Source: Syntrophobacteraceae bacterium | GTDB lineage: Bacteria > Desulfobacterota > Syntrophobacteria > Syntrophobacterales > Syntrophobacteraceae | Assembly (NCBI GenBank): GCA_013314815.1 | Contig: JABUEY010000005.1 | Coordinates: 1 to 62,509 of the forward strand | DNA length: 62,509 bases | Direction of reading: 5' to 3' | Shown here: positions 5,448 to 62,390 of the stretch, in pieces | How positions within the stretch are numbered: position 1 is the stretch's first letter | Layout of the letters: every line of letters begins with the position of its first letter | Made by a program: the position numbers and the translations under genes | The notes under the pieces: model-generated | What the model was told of the DNA's origin: nothing | Database searches by the model: none | The model's input: only the letters and a program-made list of their open reading frames with translations

Positions 5448-5698
5448 GGGTGACCACCTGTTTTCAACTTTTCTTTTATTTTGACATCTCTTGAGAAATA
5501 CTTGATATCCACTTTGAAGCAGGATAACAAATGGCAACTCGGGGGTCAACCGGGTTCTGGGTGCTCCGGCAAGACAATGGTGTCTTCTGAAGCCGCCTCG
5601 GGCGCCCCCCCCCGGATCGACCGCCGGGCGCCGTCCCGGAGCCCGGAAAACCCTGTGGTTCCGTTCGAACGGAAGAATCCAGTAAACGGGAGAATCAG

Positions 5699-6598
5699 AT
5701 GTCCAGCAAAACGGTTTATGAAACTCATTGCCCCGGGCTGCAGCTCCTGACGCGCGGGAAGGTGAGAGATATTTACGACCTTGGAGATACGCTGCTTATC
5801 GTTGCCTCGGACCGCATCTCCGCCTTCGACGTGATCATGCCCGATCCCATACCCGACAAGGGGAGGATTTTGACTCAGCTCAGCGAATTCTGGCTCAACT
5901 TCCTCGGCGACATTGTCGACAATCATCTCATCAGCACCAGGGTATCGGAATTCCCCGAGGTGTGCAGGCGTCACGAGGAGGCCCTGGCGGGAAGAAGCAT
6001 GTGGGTGAAGAAGGCCCGTGTGCTTCCCGTGGAATGCATCGTGCGGGGCTACCTGGTCGGTTCGGGATGGAAGGACTACAAGCAGACGGGCTGCGTGTGT
6101 GGAATCCCCCTTCCTCCCCACCTCGAGGAGGCCGGCAGGCTTCCGGAAACCCTCTTTACGCCCTCTACCAAGGCCGAAATAGGTGATCATGACGAAAATA
6201 TCTCCTTTGCCCGGATGATCGAGATCATCGGCGAGGATCTCGCTCATCGCGTGAAGGATATCAGCATCAGGCTGTATGAAAAAGCGGCGGCGTACGCTCT
6301 CGAACGAGGCATCATTCTTGCCGATACCAAGTTTGAATTTGGAATTCACGAAGGGCGGCTGATCCTCGTGGATGAAGTGCTGACTCCCGATTCGAGCCGC
6401 TTCTGGCCGGCGGATCGCTACAGGACGGGAACGAGCCCCGAAAGCTTCGACAAGCAGTACCTGCGCGACTACCTGCTGGCCAGCGGCTGGAAAGTTTCCG
6501 ATCCGCCTCCCCATCTTCCTCCTCAGGTGGTAGCCGATACTCGAAGCCGCTACCTCGAAGCCCTCGAACGCCTCCTGGGAAAGGGGCCGGCCTGTTGA
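5699..6598 (+). CDS. purC: Phosphoribosylaminoimidazole-succinocarboxamide synthase
   Basis: Makes SAICAR from CAIR, aspartate and ATP in purine biosynthesis. The 299-residue length and motifs fit the SAICAR synthetase family of the longer type: RGKVRDIYDLGD near the N-terminus, SDRISAFDVIMPDPIPDKG, the substrate-binding VECIVRGYLVGSGWKDY, and LADTKFEFG/LVDEVLTPDSSRFWP. GGGAG precedes the ATG at 5699. It is followed after one base by a ParB-like gene, so translation is likely coupled, although no metabolic link between the two is known. Confidence 0.96.
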   Translation: MSSKTVYETHCPGLQLLTRGKVRDIYDLGDTLLIVASDRISAFDVIMPDPIPDKGRILTQLSEFWLNFLGDIVDNHLISTRVSEFPEVCRRHEEALAGRSMWVKKARVLPVECIVRGYLVGSGWKDYKQTGCVCGIPLPPHLEEAGRLPETLFTPSTKAEIGDHDENISFARMIEIIGEDLAHRVKDISIRLYEKAAAYALERGIILADTKFEFGIHEGRLILVDEVLTPDSSRFWPADRYRTGTSPESFDKQYLRDYLLASGWKVSDPPPHLPPQVVADTRSRYLEALERLLGKGPAC

Positions 6599-6599
6599 C

Positions 6600-7619
6600 A
6601 TGAATGCCTTGTTCATCCCTGTCAGGCTCGAAAATCTCGACTGGCAGGAAAGATCTTTCGAAATCAGGAGCTGCACTCCCGACAGCCGTCTCGCAGATTC
6701 CCTGGATCGGTTCGGCATCCTGGTTCCTCCCTGGGTTCTCGATAACGGTGCCGGTGGATACATCCCGGTGGACGGATTCAAGAGGCTTTCCCACGCGCGG
6801 GAGAAGGGCGTTGCCAGCGTCGAATGCCGTGTCTTTGACTCCACTGCTGCGCGCGGTGACCTGCTGCTCACAAGAATCGAAACGAAGCTTTTCGAAGGGC
6901 CGCTAAACCCTGCCGAAAAAGCCAGGATCGTTTCCTTGCTTTGGGAAACGGTCTCATTCGAGCATCTGTGCGAAAAGTATCTGCCTGTGCTGCAGATTCC
7001 TGCCCGCCGGGAGGTTGTCGACCGGTGGCTTTGTCTTGCGGCCCGGGGCGACGCTTTCCTTGAAGCCGCGGTCTCGGGGAAGATCTGCGACCGTGCTGCC
7101 CTGCTCCTGGCGGAATGGGAAGACGCTGCAGGGGAAAAGGGGCTGGGTATTCTGAAAGATCTACGCTGCAGTGCGAGCATCCAGGTCGAGATACTCGAAG
7201 GGATCATACAGATCGCGCTGCGAGACGATGCGTCCGTCGGAGATGTTCTCGGCCGCCGGGATTTCAACGCGGTGCTCGATGATCCGCATCTCAATCATCG
7301 GCAAAAGACTCAGACCCTGCGATCCCTTCTCACGCGTCTGCGCTTTCCGAGACTGCGGGCGAGAGAAGAACGCTTCGCCAATGAAGTCCGCCGAGTCCGT
7401 CTGCCCGGGGGTGTACAGATCGTTCCCCCTCCTTCCTTCGAAGGAGACCACTGGCAGTTGAACCTCCACTTCTGCGGCATCCCCGAACTGCAGTCGCTTC
7501 TCGACGAAACCCGGAGGATAGCCGGGTCTCCTGCCATGGCAAAGCTCATGAGTTCAACTCAGCAGGAATCCATGGATGAGACGGGCACCCCCGGCAACAG
7601 CCTTACCTTCCGCAAGTGA
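6600..7619 (+). CDS. ParB/sulfiredoxin-like domain protein
   Basis: A 339-residue protein whose N-terminal ~85 residues resemble a ParB N-terminal domain: RLADSLDRFGILVPPWV, then a Y-I-P-V-DGFKRL element and REKGVASVECRVF. The second arginine of the usual G-H-R-R box is absent. The remainder is helical and contains no family I recognise. It begins one base after the purC stop and overlaps the next gene by four bases, so the three genes are probably translated together. It is not next to parA, has no chromosome-partition context, and is paired with an SPL-like radical SAM gene. A DNA-binding, nucleotide-hydrolysing or adaptor role is possible; none is shown by the sequence. Confidence 0.7.
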   Translation: MNALFIPVRLENLDWQERSFEIRSCTPDSRLADSLDRFGILVPPWVLDNGAGGYIPVDGFKRLSHAREKGVASVECRVFDSTAARGDLLLTRIETKLFEGPLNPAEKARIVSLLWETVSFEHLCEKYLPVLQIPARREVVDRWLCLAARGDAFLEAAVSGKICDRAALLLAEWEDAAGEKGLGILKDLRCSASIQVEILEGIIQIALRDDASVGDVLGRRDFNAVLDDPHLNHRQKTQTLRSLLTRLRFPRLRAREERFANEVRRVRLPGGVQIVPPPSFEGDHWQLNLHFCGIPELQSLLDETRRIAGSPAMAKLMSSTQQESMDETGTPGNSLTFRK

Positions 7620-8740
7620 AAGGAGAAGTCTTCACAGCCGTCATGATCGTCAAGCCTCCCGGGAAGATCCGAGTCGAAGAAGCCGTTCTGGACAGTGACC
7701 TGGTGTCCACTCTCCGCAAGAACCTGCCCCATGCGAAACTGGAAGTTGCAGACAGGATTTCGGAAGCCGTCGAGCCCGACCCGGATGTCGTGGAAGTGGT
7801 TCACTTCAAGGGCCGCTTTCTCAAGTCATGTCCCGGAACACGCCATTACTCCTGCTGCGGATACCGGATCCTGCATTTCGGAGTCCAGTGCAACCTGGCC
7901 TGCAGCTACTGTGTTCTACAGGCTTATCTCAACCTGCCCAACCTCAGGCTCTTCGGAAACACACGTGAACTCATCGCGGAACTCGAAAGCGAACTCGATT
8001 CCCACACCGAAAGACTCCACCGCATCGGCACCGGCGAATTCACCGACTCCCTGCTGCTCGATCCCTGGACCGAATGGACCACCAGGCTGGTGCCGCTTTT
8101 CGCTCAACGAAACAACGCCGTACTCGAACTCAAAACCAAGACAAACTTTATCGAAAACCTGCGTAACCTGGATCACCGCGGGCACACCATCGCCTCCTGG
8201 TCACTGAACGCGGGCCTGATTGCAAAGCGGGAGGAACCCAGGGCGGCGAGTCTCGACGAAAGGTTCCATGCGGCTGCCCGCTGTGCGTCCTGGGGGTATC
8301 CCCTGGCCTTCCATTTCGATCCCATGATCGAACACGAAGGATGGAGGAAAGGCTACGGAGAGATCCTGGACAGGCTCTTCGATGCCGTCGATCCGTCTCG
8401 CGTGGTCTGGATCAGCCTCGGAGCCTTCCGATTCATGCCCGACCTCAAGCCGCTGATCCGCGGGAAACACCCGCGGAGCCGCTACATCCACGGAGAATTC
8501 ATCCGGGGGCTCGACGACAAGATGCGCTACTTCAGAGATATTCGAATCGAACTGTACTCCTTCATGCTCGAACGCATCCGGCGGGTGGACCCGGACCTTT
8601 GCGTGTATCTGTGCATGGAGGGAAGGGATATTTGGCGGGAGGTGTTCGGATTCAGCCCGGAAGACCGGGGAGGCCTGCCGAACATGCTCGATTCCGCTGT
8701 AAAGGAAAGGATGAACACGGGGAACGACTTTGCGGCATAG
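7616..8740 (+). CDS. Spore-photoproduct-lyase-like radical SAM protein
   Basis: Radical SAM enzyme of 374 residues. The [4Fe-4S]-binding CNLACSYC places cysteines at 92, 96 and 99, followed by VLQAYLNLPN, which is typical of the spore photoproduct lyase (SPL) family. Further cysteines precede the cluster (KSCPG, YSCCGY). The region matching the H-donor cysteine segment of Bacillus SPL instead reads GTGEFTDS (E141, F142), so it should not act as a classic SPL. GTG at 7616 overlaps the stop of the ParB-like gene as GTGA; an ATG at 7643 is an alternative start. The host shows no sporulation gene here. The substrate is unknown; DNA or nucleotide repair is an inference from the family name only. 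Confidence 0.82.
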   Translation: MKGEVFTAVMIVKPPGKIRVEEAVLDSDLVSTLRKNLPHAKLEVADRISEAVEPDPDVVEVVHFKGRFLKSCPGTRHYSCCGYRILHFGVQCNLACSYCVLQAYLNLPNLRLFGNTRELIAELESELDSHTERLHRIGTGEFTDSLLLDPWTEWTTRLVPLFAQRNNAVLELKTKTNFIENLRNLDHRGHTIASWSLNAGLIAKREEPRAASLDERFHAAARCASWGYPLAFHFDPMIEHEGWRKGYGEILDRLFDAVDPSRVVWISLGAFRFMPDLKPLIRGKHPRSRYIHGEFIRGLDDKMRYFRDIRIELYSFMLERIRRVDPDLCVYLCMEGRDIWREVFGFSPEDRGGLPNMLDSAVKERMNTGNDFAA

Positions 8741-8933: not shown

Positions 8934-10118
8934 ATGGATTTTCAACTGACCGATGAACAACGCATGATCAAGGAAACCGTTTACAAGTGGGCCGTGAACG
9001 AACTCGGCCCGATCCAGGAAAAGATAGACGACGAAGACTGGTTTCCTCCCGATTTTTTCAAGAAATGTGCGGAACTGGGAATTTTGGGTATCACTATCGA
9101 CGAGGAATACGGCGGCTTGGGGGGCGACGTGCTCATGCAAACCCTGGCGGTCGAGGAAATGAGCCGCATTTGTCCCGCGCTGGCCATGTCCTACGGGGCG
9201 CATTCCAACCTTTGTGCCAACAATATTCATAAGAATGCGGGCTCTGAACTGAAGCGGAAGTACCTGCCTCCCCTGGTGGCCGGGGAGAAGGTGGGGGCCC
9301 TGGCGCTCACGGAACCCAACGCCGGATCGGACGCTATGAGTTTGCGGACTCGTGCGGTCAGGAAGGGCGACAGGTATATTCTGAACGGCACGAAGATGTT
9401 CATCACGAACGGTCCCATTGCGGACGTGCTGCTGGTATATGCCAAGACCAGCCCTGACATGGGGGCCAAGGGGATCAGTGCCTTTATCGTGGAGAAGGAT
9501 TTCCCGGGGTTTTCCGTTTCGAGGAAGCTCAAGAAGTGCGGTATGCGTGGATCGCCGACGGGGGAGCTTGTGTTTGAAGACTGCGAGGTTCCGGCTGAGA
9601 ACCTGGTGGGCGGGGAGAACATGGGGGTGAACGTGGTGACGAGCGGACTCGACATCGAACGCATCGTTCTTGCCGGCGGTTCACTCGGGATGGCTCAACA
9701 GGCCCTCGACTACTCGATCCGGTACGCCGTGGAAAGAGAGCAGTTCGGACGGCCCATTGCCGGTTTCCAGATGGTGCAGCAGAAGCTTGCGGACATGTAT
9801 TCGCGCACGCAGGCTGCCAGGCTGCTGGTTTACAGAGCGGCCGTTGCCGCTCAGAACGCCCGGCGGGGAGGCAAGGGTACGGAGCTGACCCTTTTGGCTG
9901 CGTCTGCGATCCTGTTCGCCGCTGAAACGGCGACCTGGGTATGCGACCAGGGTGTGCAGATCCACGGCGGGTATGGGTATTGCCTGGAATTCCCCGTCCA
10001 GAAGCTCTGGCGGGATGCGAAGCTTTATGAGATCGGGGCGGGGACGAGCGAGATCCGGCGGATGATCATCGCAAGGGAACTCACCCGCGAGGAATTTGCC
10101 AGGAAGGCCTTGAGATAG
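8934..10118 (+). CDS. Isovaleryl-CoA dehydrogenase-like acyl-CoA dehydrogenase
   Basis: FAD flavoprotein that oxidises isovaleryl-CoA to 3-methylcrotonyl-CoA, passing electrons to electron-transfer flavoprotein. Substrate assignment rests on two points. The catalytic base sits in helix G as in isovaleryl-CoA dehydrogenase (LDIERIVLAGG, E242). The site used by other acyl-CoA dehydrogenases near the C-terminus reads YEIGAGTSEIRR, with alanine instead of glutamate, as is characteristic of isovaleryl-CoA dehydrogenase. Flavin-binding segments LTEPNAGSD and MFITNG are present, and the length of 394 is normal. AGGGAGG precedes the ATG. Three leucine-degradation genes follow on the same strand. Confidence 0.9.
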   Translation: MDFQLTDEQRMIKETVYKWAVNELGPIQEKIDDEDWFPPDFFKKCAELGILGITIDEEYGGLGGDVLMQTLAVEEMSRICPALAMSYGAHSNLCANNIHKNAGSELKRKYLPPLVAGEKVGALALTEPNAGSDAMSLRTRAVRKGDRYILNGTKMFITNGPIADVLLVYAKTSPDMGAKGISAFIVEKDFPGFSVSRKLKKCGMRGSPTGELVFEDCEVPAENLVGGENMGVNVVTSGLDIERIVLAGGSLGMAQQALDYSIRYAVEREQFGRPIAGFQMVQQKLADMYSRTQAARLLVYRAAVAAQNARRGGKGTELTLLAASAILFAAETATWVCDQGVQIHGGYGYCLEFPVQKLWRDAKLYEIGAGTSEIRRMIIARELTREEFARKALR

Positions 10119-10199
10119 AACCTCAGGGGCAGGAAATACCTCCCCCGGGGATTGCCACTGCCGCTGGACGCGGGGGGATGTCCCCGGGGAAGGATCGTG

Positions 10200-11012
10200 A
10201 TGGAACTTAAAGACGCACAAGGAGGGGGAATGGAAGCTGAGCTGGTTCTGGAAGAACGGTCGGACCGGATGGTCCTTCTTACGCTCAACCGCCCCCAGGT
10301 GATGAACTCCTTCAACTTCGCCATGCTCCGTGCTCTCGAAGCCCGTCTCGATGCAGTGCGTTTCGACCCGGAAGTGCGCGTGGTGATCATCACAGGAGCG
10401 GGAGACCGGGCTTTCTGTGCGGGAGCCGACCTTAAGGAGCGGGCTTCCTACAGCGAACGCATGGTGAAGGAATTCATCCACACCATACGCAACCTGTTTA
10501 CATCCATCGAGTTCATGGAAAAACCCGTTATTGCAGCTGTAAATGGAACCGCTCTCGGTGGCGGCACGGAACTGGCCCTGGCCTGTGACCTGCGCCTGGC
10601 TTCGAACACCGCATCCATGGGGCTTACGGAAACACGCCTGGCCATCATTCCGGGGGCGGGAGGCACCCAGAGGCTGCCGCGGCTTATCGGCCGGGGCAAA
10701 GCGAAGGAACTCATCTTTACGGGCCGCAGGGTTGGAGCCGATGAAGCCCTGGAGATCGGCCTGGTCAACAAGGTGTGTGCACCTGGAGACCTGATCGGGG
10801 AGTGCCGGGCCATGGCGGCCATGATCTGCGAAGCCGGGCCCATCGCCGTTCAGCAGGCGAAGTATGCCATCAACCATGGCATGGAAACGGACCTGCACAC
10901 GGGCTTGGCAATCGAATCCAACGCCTACCGGGTCGTGATTCCGACAGAAGACCGTCTCGAAGGCCTCGCCGCCTTCAGGGAAAAGAGGAAACCCGTGTAC
11001 AAAGGCAGATAA
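10200..11012 (+). CDS. Enoyl-CoA hydratase, methylglutaconyl-CoA hydratase-like
   Basis: Crotonase-fold hydratase, probably converting 3-methylglutaconyl-CoA to 3-hydroxy-3-methylglutaryl-CoA. The oxyanion-hole segment FCAGADLKE and both catalytic glutamates (in GGGTELALACDLR and in TETRLAIIPGAGGTQ) are present. The C-terminal IPTEDRLEGLAAFREKR closely recalls the human AUH methylglutaconyl-CoA hydratase. Context agrees: it lies between an isovaleryl-CoA dehydrogenase and a carboxyltransferase gene. The start is uncertain: ATG 10200 has AAGGA five bases upstream, whereas ATG 10230 has a stronger AAGGAGG with tight four-base spacing. Confidence 0.88.
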   Translation: MELKDAQGGGMEAELVLEERSDRMVLLTLNRPQVMNSFNFAMLRALEARLDAVRFDPEVRVVIITGAGDRAFCAGADLKERASYSERMVKEFIHTIRNLFTSIEFMEKPVIAAVNGTALGGGTELALACDLRLASNTASMGLTETRLAIIPGAGGTQRLPRLIGRGKAKELIFTGRRVGADEALEIGLVNKVCAPGDLIGECRAMAAMICEAGPIAVQQAKYAINHGMETDLHTGLAIESNAYRVVIPTEDRLEGLAAFREKRKPVYKGR

Positions 11013-11057
11013 ATCGGCGCTGCCCTGCAGTCGCGTCGACAGGAACGAGGGCCTCAT

Positions 11058-12659
11058 ATGGCGGACACGAAAGCGGAAAACCGGATTTTCTGGGAGAACG
11101 AGGAAAAGAAGCTGGATGAGCGCGTCTTCCACGCGGTGTGGCCCGGAGGAGGGGATGCCCTCGAACGGTTGGGAAGGCAGGGGAAGAGGTGTGTTCGGGA
11201 CCTCATCGAGCGGCTTGTGGATGCCGGCACGGAATTCTATGAATTGAGCCGCCTTGCGGGGTTCGGGATGAATTATCCCGAGGTCGAGGACGTGCCCTGC
11301 GCGGGGCTGGTGACAGGTCTGGGAAAGATCCACGGCAACTGGACGATGGTCATTGCCAACGACAGTCGAGTGAAGGCGGGCACCTATTTTCCCATTACCT
11401 TGAAAAAGCACATGAGGGCGCAGGCGATCGCGGAACAGTGCGGATTGAACTGTGTCTATATCGCCGATTCGGGAGGAGCCTACCTTCCCATGCAGGCGGA
11501 TGTTTTTCCGGACGATCAGCATTTCGGGTCCATGTTCTACAACATGGCGCGCATGTCCGCCAGGGGGCTGAAGCAGATCACCCTCAGCACGGGTGGAAAC
11601 ACGGCGGGGGGAGCCTACATCGTGTTCATGGCCTGCCAGTCGGTCATGATCGACAGGATGTCCTATTCCTTCCTGGGAGGCCCTCCGCTGGTGAAGGCGG
11701 CTACGGGAGAGGTCATCTCCGCCGAGGACCTGGGGGGGGCTCGAGTGCACACGCAGATTTCCGGGGGTGCAGACCATTTCTGCAAGACCCAGGACGAAGC
11801 CGTCGAGAGGGTGAGGGAGATTCTGTCCATGGAACAGCCCCAGCAGCTCTGCCTGAATCGAGGCCCGGACATGCCGCCCCGCCTTTCTCCCGTTTCCCTC
11901 TACGAGAATCTGCCCGCCAGGATTCACCAGGGAATCAACGTGCGGGTGATCCTCGAGGCCATCGCCGACAACAGCCACTTCAGCGAATACAAGAAGCTCT
12001 ATGCCATGGGGCGGGGCGACAACATCGTCACGGGAAAGATGCGCATCAAAGGGATCCCCGTGGGAGTGATCGCTGCGCACGGGCTGGGGATTATCTTTGC
12101 CGAAGCGGCTCGAAAAGCCACGGAATGGATCATCCGCTGTTCGCAGGAGAAGATCCCGCTCCTTTTCGTGCAGAGCTCCCCCGGATACATGGTTGGGTCG
12201 GAATCGGAGCACATGGGTATCGGAAAGTACGGGGCGGACATGGTGAGAGCCGTGTCGTGCGCGCAGGTGCCCAAGGTGCAGCTCGTCATCGGTCCGGATA
12301 ACGGGGCGGCCAATTACGGAATGTGCGGGCGAGCCTACCGGCCTCATTTCCTTTTCTCCGTAATGCGTGCCCGCACTTCTGTGATGAGCGGCCGGTCCGC
12401 CGCCGAGGTGCTGCTTTCCATCGAGGAGCGCAAGCGGGTATCCGCCGGGCGGCCCATGAACACCGAGGAAAAGGACGCCTTTCGCAGGCAGATGGTGGAG
12501 AAATACGACGGAGAAGCTCATCCCTTCTACTGTGCAGCCAGGCTGCTCAACGACCGAGTGCTCAAGCTGTACGAGATTCGAGACTGGCTGGGCATGGCCT
12601 TCGAGGTCAGCCTGCTGAAACCCATCGGAGACCCGTCGTTCGGGAACCTGCGGTTCTAG
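11058..12659 (+). CDS. Acyl-CoA carboxyltransferase, methylcrotonyl-CoA carboxylase beta-type
   Basis: Biotin-dependent carboxyltransferase subunit of 533 residues with both crotonase-like halves. The N-terminal half shows YIADSGGAYLPMQ, TGGNTAGGAYIVFMA, and the acyl-CoA-site stretch GGARVHTQISGGADH. The C-terminal half shows VGVIAAHG, YMVGSESEHMGIGKYGADMV and GAANYGMCGRAY. The ending DPSFGNLRF resembles methylcrotonyl-CoA carboxylase beta chains, and the neighbours fit leucine degradation. No biotin carboxylase or biotin-carrier gene lies beside it. The alternative is the carboxyltransferase of a Na+-pumping decarboxylase (glutaconyl-CoA decarboxylase alpha type). The start at 11058 is the first ATG of a well-conserved N-terminus. 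Confidence 0.88.
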   Translation: MADTKAENRIFWENEEKKLDERVFHAVWPGGGDALERLGRQGKRCVRDLIERLVDAGTEFYELSRLAGFGMNYPEVEDVPCAGLVTGLGKIHGNWTMVIANDSRVKAGTYFPITLKKHMRAQAIAEQCGLNCVYIADSGGAYLPMQADVFPDDQHFGSMFYNMARMSARGLKQITLSTGGNTAGGAYIVFMACQSVMIDRMSYSFLGGPPLVKAATGEVISAEDLGGARVHTQISGGADHFCKTQDEAVERVREILSMEQPQQLCLNRGPDMPPRLSPVSLYENLPARIHQGINVRVILEAIADNSHFSEYKKLYAMGRGDNIVTGKMRIKGIPVGVIAAHGLGIIFAEAARKATEWIIRCSQEKIPLLFVQSSPGYMVGSESEHMGIGKYGADMVRAVSCAQVPKVQLVIGPDNGAANYGMCGRAYRPHFLFSVMRARTSVMSGRSAAEVLLSIEERKRVSAGRPMNTEEKDAFRRQMVEKYDGEAHPFYCAARLLNDRVLKLYEIRDWLGMAFEVSLLKPIGDPSFGNLRF

Positions 12660-12982
12660 AAAGTGTGCAGTGGAACGTTTTCTTTCCGAACCGCGTGTAG
12701 CGGAATCCCGGAATGTCCGTGGTGTCCCGCAACTGTTGGATGGGTTGCGTAGCCTCCCTGAGGTGCCGGAGGAGGGATTCAACCCTGCAGGAACCGGAAA
12801 CGTGCAGGATGTGACGCCCGGTGAGCGAGAGTCTGCGGGGGACTTTGACCCGGTTTGGCGTTCGGGGAGCCCCGAACCCCGGCCGGAAAACCGACAGGCA
12901 GTGAATGCATTTCCGCGAGGGTGCCAGACCCTCACCCCCCGGCATTTTGCCGTTGTGGCGACGACAGAAACGGAGGATTCCC
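12660..12982. other. Intergenic gap without recognised gene
   Basis: These 323 bases separate the carboxyltransferase and lyase genes of the leucine cluster. A GTG-initiated open frame crosses it on the plus strand but has no Shine-Dalgarno sequence, no recognisable domain and proline/glycine-rich shadow-like composition. The only functional site seen is the GGAGG just before 12983. The length suggests the lyase may have its own promoter, although none stands out. Confidence 0.4.
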
Positions 12983-14002
12983 ATGGCGGTTCTTGAATAT
13001 CCCAGGAAGGTTGTTCTCGGTGATATCACGGTAAGAGACGGATTTCAGCACGAAGAAAAGTTCATCCCCACCGAAGCCAAGCTGTGGGTGGCCGAACAGT
13101 TGATCCTTGCCGGGTTCAGGCGGATCGAGGTGACCAATTTCGGCAACCCGTCGGGTATGCCTCAGTTCAAAGACGCAGATGCATTGATGAGGAGTCTCAG
13201 GGGCAGCAGGAAGGTTGCCGAGTTGATCGACGACGTGGAAATCACGGCCATCACCATTCGGGAGAAGGCGGTGGAGCGTGCCATCCAGGCGCGGCATGAA
13301 GGCTACGGGCCCGATCGTGTCCTTTTCATGGTGTCCACCAGCGAGTCGCATCACAAGGTGAATTCAGGCCTGTCCCTCGATGACTACTGGAAGATGTGCG
13401 AACACTGGATACCACGGATTCACGATGCGGGGATGAAGGTGTGCGGGACGGTGAGCACCATCTGGGGGTGCCCTATCGAAGGGCCCACGGAACTGAAGAA
13501 GGCCGTCGAGTTCAGCAGGCGTTGGCTGGACATCGGGGCCGACGACATCGAACATGCCGACCACGACGGCTCGGCTCCCCCCAACCGTGTCTTTGAATAC
13601 TACTCCATGATCATGGACGCCATGCCGGATCCATCCAGGCACGTGGCCCATTTTCATGTCACTCGTGGATGGGGGCTTGCCAATGTCCTGGCCGCGCTCC
13701 AGGCGGGAATCACCCATTTCGAATCCACCCTGGGAGGCATAGGAGGCCAGCCTGCCAATTTCGTCGATGGCGTCCCCGTTGCCGGAACGGGCAAGTATTA
13801 TTACGAGGATCCCACCATCACCGGGCTCGTCTGCACTGAAGACATGGTGGTCATGATGGACGAGATGGGCATCGATACGGGACTCGATGTGGACAGGGTA
13901 CTCGAAACCGGACGCATGGTGGAACGCATCGTGGGCAGGAGACTCCGCTCCGAATGCGCGCACAGCGGGAGGATACCTAAGTCTTTGACCGGGCGGAGAT
14001 AA
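12983..14002 (+). CDS. HMG-CoA lyase-like DRE-TIM metallolyase
   Basis: 339-residue TIM-barrel aldolase of the HMGL/DRE-TIM family, expected by position to cleave 3-hydroxy-3-methylglutaryl-CoA to acetyl-CoA and acetoacetate. Seen: R18-D19 in ITVRDGFQHEE, metal-binding HxH at H223/H225 (VAHFHVTRGWGLAN), and TVSTIWGCPIEG. Odd: the signature loop GGLGGCPYA of true HMG-CoA lyases reads GGIGGQPAN (Q256 replaces the active-site cysteine), followed by an insertion of roughly a dozen residues before the C-T-E-D element. It may be a divergent HMG-CoA lyase or a related acyl-CoA lyase. GGAGG seven bases before the ATG at 12983 sets the start. Confidence 0.8.
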   Translation: MAVLEYPRKVVLGDITVRDGFQHEEKFIPTEAKLWVAEQLILAGFRRIEVTNFGNPSGMPQFKDADALMRSLRGSRKVAELIDDVEITAITIREKAVERAIQARHEGYGPDRVLFMVSTSESHHKVNSGLSLDDYWKMCEHWIPRIHDAGMKVCGTVSTIWGCPIEGPTELKKAVEFSRRWLDIGADDIEHADHDGSAPPNRVFEYYSMIMDAMPDPSRHVAHFHVTRGWGLANVLAALQAGITHFESTLGGIGGQPANFVDGVPVAGTGKYYYEDPTITGLVCTEDMVVMMDEMGIDTGLDVDRVLETGRMVERIVGRRLRSECAHSGRIPKSLTGRR

Positions 14003-21998: not shown

Positions 21999-23657
21999 CT
22001 ATCGCACCACTCCACTGCGCAAAACCGCCTGGACAAACATCCTGCACAGTGGCTCCGATACCCGGTGTTCGTAGACTTCCCCGTCGGGGGTTACTCCTCG
22101 AACCCTGCAGTCGTGCAGAAACCAGGCCAGGAGGATCATGCCGATGTTTCTGCGGGCAGTGGGAGTCCGTGCATCGGAGGCAAGTCTTTCAATGGCTTTC
22201 ATGCCGTCTGTCGAGCAGGGAACGGGGTCCACGGGCAGCGATCTCGGTTGGCGTAACGGCGGCAGGGACTTGATGAAATTGAGGATCCTGCCGAGCCGCA
22301 GGAGGGTGATGGATTCCTCCCTGGTGGTCGTGTGGGAGATGGGGAAAACGGTGGATCTCAGAAGTGACGTCTTTTCAGGCAGGAGTCCCGCGTCCGAGCA
22401 AAGTGAGAAATCCGCACTTCCCGGCGAAGGGTAATAGACGGATACGCCGGCGATGACCGGCAGGCCGGCCAGGTAGAGCAGGTCGGCCAGGGAATCGAAG
22501 GCTGCCTGGTGGGGCGCACCCACGATGATGTAGCCGACGGCGTGCATTCCGAGCCTTCTTGCGCATCGCAGCGCGTTTTCGAATGAAATCCGGACGTCGG
22601 GCCTTCTGAATCTGGCCAACTGTTCCAAGCAGGTCGAAGCCAGGGAGAGATTCAAGGCTGTGAACCCTGCTTCCTTCATCCTTCGGATGATTTCGTCGTC
22701 GAGAGTGGGAGGAAAGAGGCCGTTCATGGCTCGAAGTTCGAGGTCCGCTGCGGCGAAACGCTCATTGATTCCGTCGAGAAGACACAGGAACCAGCGCCTG
22801 TCCAGGGAGATGTTTTCATCCTCGAAATCGATAAACCCGGTTCCGAACGTGTAAACCAGTTCCTCCATCTCGGCGAGCACCGATTCAACGCTCCTTTTCC
22901 TGTACGTTATGCCGGACGATCCGCCCATGGAACAGTAACTGCACCGCATCGGACAGCCCCGGCTTGCGGTGACGACTCCGCTTCCCCTGCCGTTTCTCCG
23001 GTAGAAGCGCCGGTTCAACAGCCGGAAGGCGGGAAGCGGCTGCCGGTCCAGGTCCGGCACGGCCGCGGGCGGATTCACGATCGATCTCCCGGATGGCCCT
23101 CGAAAAGCGATTCCCGGAACATTCCGCAGATCGCTTTTTTCCTTCAATGCCCGGGCCAGCTCCGGCATCGATTGCTCGCCTTCTCCGCGCAGCACGTAAT
23201 CGACCGCCGGGCATTCCAGGACCTTTTCGGGTAAATGCGTCGGGTGATGGCCTCCAAGAACGACGATACACCCGGGGTGGAACCGCTTCACCGCTTCGGC
23301 GGTCGTCAATGCTTCGTCGGCGTATGCGGTGAACAGGGACGAGACTCCCACGAGGAAGGCACCCGATTCCTTTGCCTTCTTCCCCAGGTGTTCGAAGCCT
23401 GCGCCGAAATGCCTGTAGTGGTGAAAAAGGCCGAAAGGTGAAACGTCGGCACGGCCGTAGCATGCGTCGAGGCAGGCCATCTCGGGAGGCAGGTCGATCA
23501 CGCGGGACCTGGATGTGGCCGATCCGTCCAGGATGTCGACGGAAAAGCCTTGACGGTCGAGCGATGAGGCGATGCACGCCAGGCCGTAGGGGATGGTCCG
23601 CTTGGCGGTGATGTAGAAGTCCCTTACGGGAGGCTGGATGAGGAGTATATCGGTCAT
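21999..23657 (-). CDS. B12-binding radical SAM protein
   Basis: 552-residue class B (cobalamin-binding) radical SAM enzyme. The N-terminal Rossmann-like B12 domain has the usual opening DILLIQPP, VGVSSLFTAYADEA and VVLGGHHPTHLPE, then VDYVLRGEGEQSMPEL. The radical SAM core carries SRGCPMRCSYCS with cysteines at 235, 239 and 242, followed by YRKRSVESVLAEMEELV and FIDFEDENISLD. Relatives include methyltransferases and ring-forming enzymes acting on lipids, cofactors or natural products; the substrate cannot be told from sequence. It begins 34 bases before the end of priA, read along the reverse strand, with no obvious functional link. Confidence 0.88.
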   Translation of the reverse strand: MTDILLIQPPVRDFYITAKRTIPYGLACIASSLDRQGFSVDILDGSATSRSRVIDLPPEMACLDACYGRADVSPFGLFHHYRHFGAGFEHLGKKAKESGAFLVGVSSLFTAYADEALTTAEAVKRFHPGCIVVLGGHHPTHLPEKVLECPAVDYVLRGEGEQSMPELARALKEKSDLRNVPGIAFRGPSGRSIVNPPAAVPDLDRQPLPAFRLLNRRFYRRNGRGSGVVTASRGCPMRCSYCSMGGSSGITYRKRSVESVLAEMEELVYTFGTGFIDFEDENISLDRRWFLCLLDGINERFAAADLELRAMNGLFPPTLDDEIIRRMKEAGFTALNLSLASTCLEQLARFRRPDVRISFENALRCARRLGMHAVGYIIVGAPHQAAFDSLADLLYLAGLPVIAGVSVYYPSPGSADFSLCSDAGLLPEKTSLLRSTVFPISHTTTREESITLLRLGRILNFIKSLPPLRQPRSLPVDPVPCSTDGMKAIERLASDARTPTARRNIGMILLAWFLHDCRVRGVTPDGEVYEHRVSEPLCRMFVQAVLRSGVVR

Positions 23658-62147: not shown

Positions 62148-62171
62148 TGGTGTTACTGAAGATTGGGAAGC

Positions 62172-62324
62172 GATCAGGTGCCCAACGGCTCAAAAGGGAA
62201 TCCCGTTGAAATCGGGAGCGGTCCCGCCGCTGTGAACGGGGACGAAATCCACGGAGACCACTGAAAGGCATTTCGGGAAGGCGTGGAGAGTAGAGAGATC
62301 CGAAGCCAGAACACCTGCCTGATC
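62172..62324 (+). promoter_or_regulatory. Cobalamin (B12) riboswitch aptamer
   Basis: Coenzyme-B12-sensing RNA element. The closing stem P1 is GATCAGG (62172-62178) with CCTGATC (62318-62324). Between them, in the correct order, are GGTGCCC, AAAAGGGAA, the GGTCCCGCCGCTGTGA core, CCACTG, GGGAAGGC and the B12 box GAAGCCAGAACACCTGCC. A terminator hairpin follows, so B12 binding probably causes premature termination. The controlled gene lies outside the window; cobalamin uptake or synthesis, or a B12-independent isozyme, are the usual targets. Confidence 0.93.
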
Positions 62325-62390
62325 GTGAGGAAAGCCGGTACGAGGTCATGCCGCGATGTCCTCCAAGGATCAAGTGAAACAGGGTGCACT

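Follow-up and report, generated by a model that had tools for sequence, protein, structure and literature searches.

A divergent ParB-like protein and an SPL-fold radical SAM protein encoded by a conserved gene pair in Desulfobacterota

The phylum Desulfobacterota carries a widely conserved gene pair encoding a divergent ParB-like protein (P1) and a radical SAM protein (P2) that has the fold of spore photoproduct lyase (SPL). Here, we describe a computational analysis of this pair as it occurs in a 62,509-nucleotide stretch of Syntrophobacteraceae DNA (the window) and in its relatives. P1 and P2 are almost certainly a functional pair, and they very probably make up a two-protein system, hitherto undescribed, whose role may be the repair or modification of nucleic acid. 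Our preferred reading, to which we assign a probability of roughly 45%, is that P1 would serve as a nucleotide-gated DNA-binding adaptor directing the radical chemistry of P2 to nucleic acid.

In the window, the P1 start codon at 6600 lies one base past the purC stop (6598), and the end of P1 shares the four nucleotides GTGA with a possible start of P2 (Table 1); both features, reported in the initial annotation, are present in the sequence. Translation of P2 may begin either at GTG 7616, yielding 374 aa, or at ATG 7643, yielding 365 aa. The ATG is in frame, 23 nt past the P1 stop, and begins a reading (MIVKPPGKI...) that matches the MIVHPPKKV... of the closest relative, locus L002; the GTG start is not certain. 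The P1/P2 junction in L002 is ATGA, and overlaps of this kind were found in 7 among the 30 adjacent loci listed, counting L002 and L059, which are the same genome region. These overlaps in relatives indicate that coupling of P1 and P2 is real in the family, whichever start the window uses. Thus, the translational coupling proposed at the outset holds for the family, and its dependence on GTG 7616 in the window is the uncertain part. The P1 and P2 frames are real genes, because homologues occur in 18 named contigs and in more than 220 genomes.

Table 1. Features of the purC-P1-P2 region, in window coordinates.
Feature	Position	Strand	Basis
purC, SAICAR synthetase; upstream gene of the cluster	5699..6598	+	PF01259, E 3.2e-74
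P1, divergent orphan ParB-like protein, 339 aa	6600..7619	+	family profile A3; AlphaFold2 model
P1 residues 1-100, ParB/Srx-type nucleotide-binding domain	6600..6899	+	profile alignment to Noc and Spo0J; model topology, Foldseek
P1 G59-F-K-R62 codons, equivalent of the ParB GERR box (Box II)	6774..6785	+	G59 and R62 invariant, 64/64
P1 residues 95-103, matching ParB Box III (ENLQRxxLN); degenerate in the window (TKLFEGPLN)	6882..6908	+	alignment of long P1
P1 residues 104-187, helical, aligned with the ParB/Noc helix-turn-helix DNA-binding domain	6909..7160	+	hmmsearch; all-helical in model
P1 residues 188-326, C-terminal region, main part present in short P1	7161..7577	+	short forms; model
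GTGA, P1 stop overlapping possible P2 start	7616..7619	+	sequence; ATGA at this junction in relatives
P2, SPL-fold radical SAM protein	7616..8740	+	PF20903, E 3.3e-26; Foldseek to SPL structures
Alternative P2 start ATG, homologous to the L002 start	7643..7645	+	comparison with relative L002
P2 C72 of CPG motif, within one residue of the SPL S76 position	7829..7831	+	invariant, 73/73
P2 C80, C81	7853..7858	+	C80 72/73, C81 73/73
P2 radical SAM CxxxCxxC, C92-C96-C99	7889..7912	+	invariant in 73/73 P2 homologues
P2 E141, aligned with the SPL hydrogen-donor Cys (C140 Gt / C141 Bs)	8036..8038	+	Glu in 73/73
P2 C333, end of last predicted barrel strand (YLCME; strand 329-333 in model)	8612..8614	+	invariant, 73/73

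The initial annotation had suggested that the two proteins form a system, an idea that would be undermined if their homologues were rarely adjacent or the pairing were limited to this genome. A survey of 395 genomes of the phylum with a P2 profile and a P1 C-terminal profile gave a different picture. P2 was matched in 243 genomes and P1 in 229; both are present in 226, one alone in 20 (17 P2 only, 3 P1 only) and neither in 149, corresponding to an odds ratio of 660 (Fisher p 1.6e-84), values that ignore shared ancestry and are descriptive. Five of the P2-only matches are strong (E<1e-100; G114, G143, G169, G185 and G188), all in genomes 80-89% complete, and the other 12 are weak (E 4e-21 to 1e-47) and may be other SPL-family proteins. 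Copies were located among the best-scoring 150 places per gene, which are not a random subset and include 126 genomes with both genes; in 86 of these 126, P1 immediately precedes P2 on the same strand. The remaining 40 keep both genes apart, 4 within 20 kb, 3 far from each other and 33 on different contigs of draft assemblies. Direct adjacency of this kind spans 19 of the sampled families.

Evidence from outside the phylum comes from named Binatia and Deltaproteobacteria contigs in one scan, in which P2 homologues were found at 18 loci of Deltaproteobacteria/Desulfobacterota and Binatia. A P1 homologue lies upstream on the same contig at 16 of them; none was found on the same contig at L005 and L015. 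Additionally, the distances of P1 are correlated with those of P2 (0.89) in a 20-genome set with purC, and the partial correlation after removal of purC distance is 0.72. Co-occurrence, adjacency and correlated divergence beyond purC all support the two-protein system. This gene order belongs largely to a single phylum and is probably ancient. No relatives were detected in viral contigs in the A2 scan, and phage and plasmid matches are weak, cover at most 70% of P2 and, where annotated, are other SPL-type proteins; a mobile or phage origin was rejected on these grounds. A role as a defence system was likewise rejected, neither P1 nor P2 having a PADLOC match. The relative L038 shows a weak PADLOC methyltransferase match over its ParB domain. 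No description of the P1-P2 pair was found in the limited literature collection searched.

As a single sequence, P1 has no match in Pfam, NCBIfam, PHROG or PADLOC. When compared with solved structures, profile A3, built from 22 long P1 homologues, matched Noc best (E 1.6e-20); the matches to ParB and Spo0J reach down to 3e-15, and weaker ones were obtained with sulfiredoxin and free serine kinase. The hmmsearch alignment to Noc 7ng0 covers profile positions 25-187 and spans the nucleotide-binding and helix-turn-helix regions. In Foldseek, the AlphaFold2 model of P1 (pLDDT 90.8) matches ParB/Noc chains best, and better-preserved P1 relatives score up to 33.5 bits against PF02195 (cut-off 26.3). 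The "ParB-type" label first given to P1 is right, but the protein is very divergent, and its affinity is visible only through the family profile or these better-preserved relatives. The C-terminal region closes with a predicted alpha-beta-beta-alpha unit, seen in the model as helices and strands at 250-308. The ParB fold is widely co-opted outside parAB and binds CTP, ATP or GTP (PMC12704722). Within Box III, N96 is kept in 38 of the 64 long P1 sequences, a set that includes the window, and is Lys in the window's lineage; R100 is kept in 46 of the 64 and is Gly in the window. Nucleotide binding is plausible across the P1 family, and hydrolysis is doubtful in the window's P1 because the Box III Asn is replaced by Lys and the next Arg is lost.

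Canonical ParB proteins possess an N-terminal ParA-binding motif of the LGRGL type. Inspection by eye revealed no such motif at the start of P1 (MNALFIPVRLENLDW) or in alignment A3, and no recurrent parA-like cluster lies beside P1 in the sampled loci, where the neighbours are purC, a family-2 glycosyltransferase (GT2) or others. Separate PF02195 proteins are encoded in 361 of the 395 phylum genomes, close relatives included. The window's own draft genome (G000; 97.7% complete, 245 contigs) has no PF02195 ParB, for which a gap in the 245-contig assembly is one possible reason. Identity of P1 with the chromosomal partition ParB was rejected, given the lack of a parA neighbour and the presence of a separate canonical ParB in relatives, if not in G000 itself. 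Genomes G255, of the same family, and G073, of the same order, are also without a PF02195 match.

The domain organization of P1 is clarified by short forms, called at about 175 to 212 aa, that are devoid of the ParB half; their genes immediately precede P2 in Binatia and two Desulfobacterota families. Since these proteins keep only the C-terminal half beside P2, the C-terminal region is the constant partner of P2, and it is likely to be the part that binds P2. The ParB half, in turn, would be a module that has been added or lost and is apparently dispensable in some lineages. Gating by NTP cannot be essential everywhere, because some lineages are without the ParB domain.

PF20903 covers P2 residues 88-290, and Foldseek comparison of the P2 model with SPL structures (4rh0, 4fhe and others) gave E values of 2.6e-21 to 2.7e-20 and TM scores of 0.72-0.82 over about 348 alignment columns, the next match being at 4e-5. 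The description of P2 as "SPL-like" is accurate at the superfamily level (PF20903), and P2 shares with the SPL core the residues K175, S196, N198 and HEGW..GY. The hydrogen-donor cysteine of SPL is C141 (Bs) or C140 (Gt) (PMC3742179). Its placement on P2 G140 was considered and dropped, as residue-by-residue alignments place the cysteine on E141. The position of the radical-relay tyrosine, Y98(Gt)/Y99(Bs), is V100 in the window's P2 and Tyr in 11 of 73 homologues. P2 scores 89 bits against a TIGR04070 cut-off of 400 and 39 bits against a TIGR03886 cut-off of 437.55; an EASC motif containing the donor cysteine is present in B. velezensis SplB and in two TIGR03886-type proteins, all of which lack the CPG..CC..C cysteines. 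A plain SPL identity for P2 was rejected on the donor position and the TIGR family cut-offs and, judged from its sequence, P2 is not an SPL. The loss of the donor cysteine means that the DNA-lesion chemistry of SPL is not simply transferable to P2. Apparent P2 fusions at L087 (805 aa) and L082 (575 aa) were discarded, their extra N-terminal parts resembling, by eye, open frame outside the gene.

Two roles can be envisaged for the additional conserved cysteines. The engineered S76C of PDB 4rh0 (C140A/S76C) aligns with P2 C72, an alignment drawn in part by the cysteine itself, and the alignment with B. velezensis SplB is off by one residue at this site. We take S76(Gt) to correspond to C74 of the C. 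acetobutylicum SPL. In that enzyme, C74, the conserved cysteine proposed as the donor, is placed on the other side of the pocket (PMC5368176). P2 C72 is thus a candidate hydrogen donor; the alternative is a putative auxiliary cluster on C72, C80, C81 and C333.

The genes surrounding the pair were compared across families, most of them represented by about one locus and some by several, with gene calls from a simple ORF procedure that leaves gaps and start sites approximate. In 14 families the gene immediately preceding P1 is purC, including cases in which P2 lies elsewhere, and GT2 occupies this position in 7 other families; the remaining families vary. The purC-P1 link, often an overlap of a few nt, survives relocation of P2 at L006, L091, L098, L101-L105, L114 and L115. 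Binatia pairs are flanked by different genes (murI-secA). On the downstream side of P2, six loci (L005, L007, L067, L087, L092 and L097) carry cluster c13, a predicted secreted SNase (PF00565) with a weak Ada-like metal-binding match, as read in the L007 copy, which mostly adjoins P2 directly and overlaps it once. These neighbours point to no single pathway, and this is the main weakness of any functional claim.

The ParB/Noc and SPL folds point toward action on DNA or nucleotides, and we propose the following mechanism. The N-terminal ParB/Srx domain of P1 would bind NTP, its helical middle would bind DNA and its C-terminal region would bind P2. P2 would cleave SAM at the [4Fe-4S] cluster of its CxxxCxxC motif to generate a 5'-deoxyadenosyl radical and, under oxygen-free conditions, would use it to reverse or install a nucleic-acid base modification. 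Following hydrogen abstraction, the reaction would depart from that of SPL, Glu replacing the donor cysteine; either C72 would donate the hydrogen, as proposed for the Clostridium enzyme, or C72, C80, C81 and C333 would ligate an auxiliary cluster. This adaptor model is weakened by the degeneracy of Box III in the window's own lineage, and also because the conserved neighbours (purC, GT2, SNase, murI-secA) are not DNA-repair genes.

A different reading, which we regard as unlikely but not negligible, is that the pair may make or recycle a modified nucleotide or RNA base, with P1 binding or phosphorylating a small molecule in the manner of SerK or SbnI, P2 performing the radical step and purC providing the pathway link. 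The recurrence of purC upstream of P1 even where P2 has moved away, the glycosyltransferase in the 7 other families, and the inclusion of free serine kinase and SbnI in the ParB fold, together with the weak profile A3 matches, are consistent with this reading; however, P1 matches DNA-binding Noc/ParB clamps best, with alignments that include the helix-turn-helix region, and the purC linkage may be inherited order, many families having other upstream genes. Inherited gene order might likewise be invoked for P1 and P2 themselves, without joint function, given an arrangement that belongs mostly to one phylum and is probably old. That explanation is very improbable in view of 226 concordant versus 20 discordant genomes, the co-retention of the genes after their separation, the partial correlation beyond purC and the adjacency in Binatia amid different flanking genes.

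The helix-turn-helix homology of P1 to Noc and KorB would also accommodate a regulator of its own operon, a transcription factor or silencer like these proteins, with the chemistry of P2 being unrelated; KorB is a known ParB-family repressor (PMC11790492). We consider this quite unlikely, since genomes that carry P1 and P2 far apart or on different contigs still retain both, and the half kept in short P1 differs from the canonical DNA-binding half. Highly unlikely, too, is a P2 that is a plain SPL or a general thymine-dimer repair enzyme of non-sporulating anaerobes with P1 as an accessory. The SPL fold (Foldseek E 2.6e-21), the shared core residues and the possibility that C72 replaces the donor, as C74 may in the C. 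acetobutylicum SPL (PMC5368176), speak for such an enzyme; against it are scores far below the TIGR04070 and TIGR03886 cut-offs, a Glu in 73/73 homologues at the donor position where SplB and the two TIGR03886-type proteins keep EASC, the Val at the Tyr98(Gt) position, and four extra P2 cysteines that are absent from SPL.

Precedents come closest among orphan ParB proteins (PMC12704722) and among SplB-like enzymes whose genes adjoin those of DNA-damage partners (PMC3765255). Like Noc, KorB and other orphan ParB proteins, P1 combines a nucleotide domain with a helix-turn-helix region outside parAB; unlike them, it possesses an extra conserved C-terminal region and a fixed radical SAM partner. 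The main text of the orphan-ParB survey (PMC12704722) makes no mention of photoproduct, and its count for "radical SAM" is zero. SplB-like radical SAM photolyases have been described in operons with the DNA-damage partners DUF4130 and ImuB-C (PMC3765255), which resemble the present pair in encoding an SPL-like radical enzyme with a DNA-associated partner, but the partners described there are not ParB-related. P2 has the CxxxCxxC motif, the fold and the core residues of SPL/SplB (PF20903, TIGR04070), and differs from it in Glu141 at the donor position, in C72/C80/C81/C333 and in its ParB-like partner gene. The TIGR03886 "spore photoproduct lyase family protein" is likewise a radical SAM protein of SPL type from organisms that are not known to sporulate; in contrast to those proteins, P2 lacks the EASC cysteine and carries the CPG..CC..C cysteines, and no annotated P1-like neighbour was found beside two TIGR03886 examples. 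P2 C72 lies within one residue of the site matching C74 of the C. acetobutylicum SPL, from which P2 differs by its partner protein and by three more conserved cysteines.

The pair appears to be unnamed and is present in about 57% of the 395 phylum genomes, and the window's P1 is not recognised by family-library entries. The resemblance of P2 to "spore photoproduct lyase" may mislead, and its annotation as an SPL is unwarranted. Action of the pair on nucleic acid, if confirmed, would enlarge the range of the recently recognised ParB-type nucleotide switches (PMC12704722) and take radical SAM repair beyond spores. The pair also offers two testable cases, a ParB-fold protein partnered by an enzyme instead of ParA and an SPL-fold enzyme that completes its reaction without SPL's cysteine. 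A wider reading, which we put forward only tentatively, is that the pair may be a widespread, mostly vertically inherited system by which anaerobes repair or modify DNA (or RNA); a ParB-type CTP-switch clamp would load or target the radical SAM enzyme, and a second Fe-S cluster or cysteine relay would replace the SPL donor. If true, this would represent a ParB-fold switch steering radical chemistry on nucleic acid.

Several other features of the window were recorded. Long antisense frames at 5546-7294 (-; 582 aa) and 9681-12935 (-; 1084 aa) lie opposite real genes and are probably an effect of GC-rich coding sequence. ARAGORN called a tRNA-Asp (anticodon atc) at 22776-22866 (-), inside a long open frame and without Rfam support, which is probably false. 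Downstream of the pair, a run of genes at 8934-14002 (+) encodes an acyl-CoA dehydrogenase, an enoyl-CoA hydratase, a carboxyltransferase and a lyase; named by eye, it resembles a branched-chain acyl-CoA degradation cluster and is conserved in several relatives. A cobalamin riboswitch (RF00174, 104.8 bits) is located at 62159-62336 (+).
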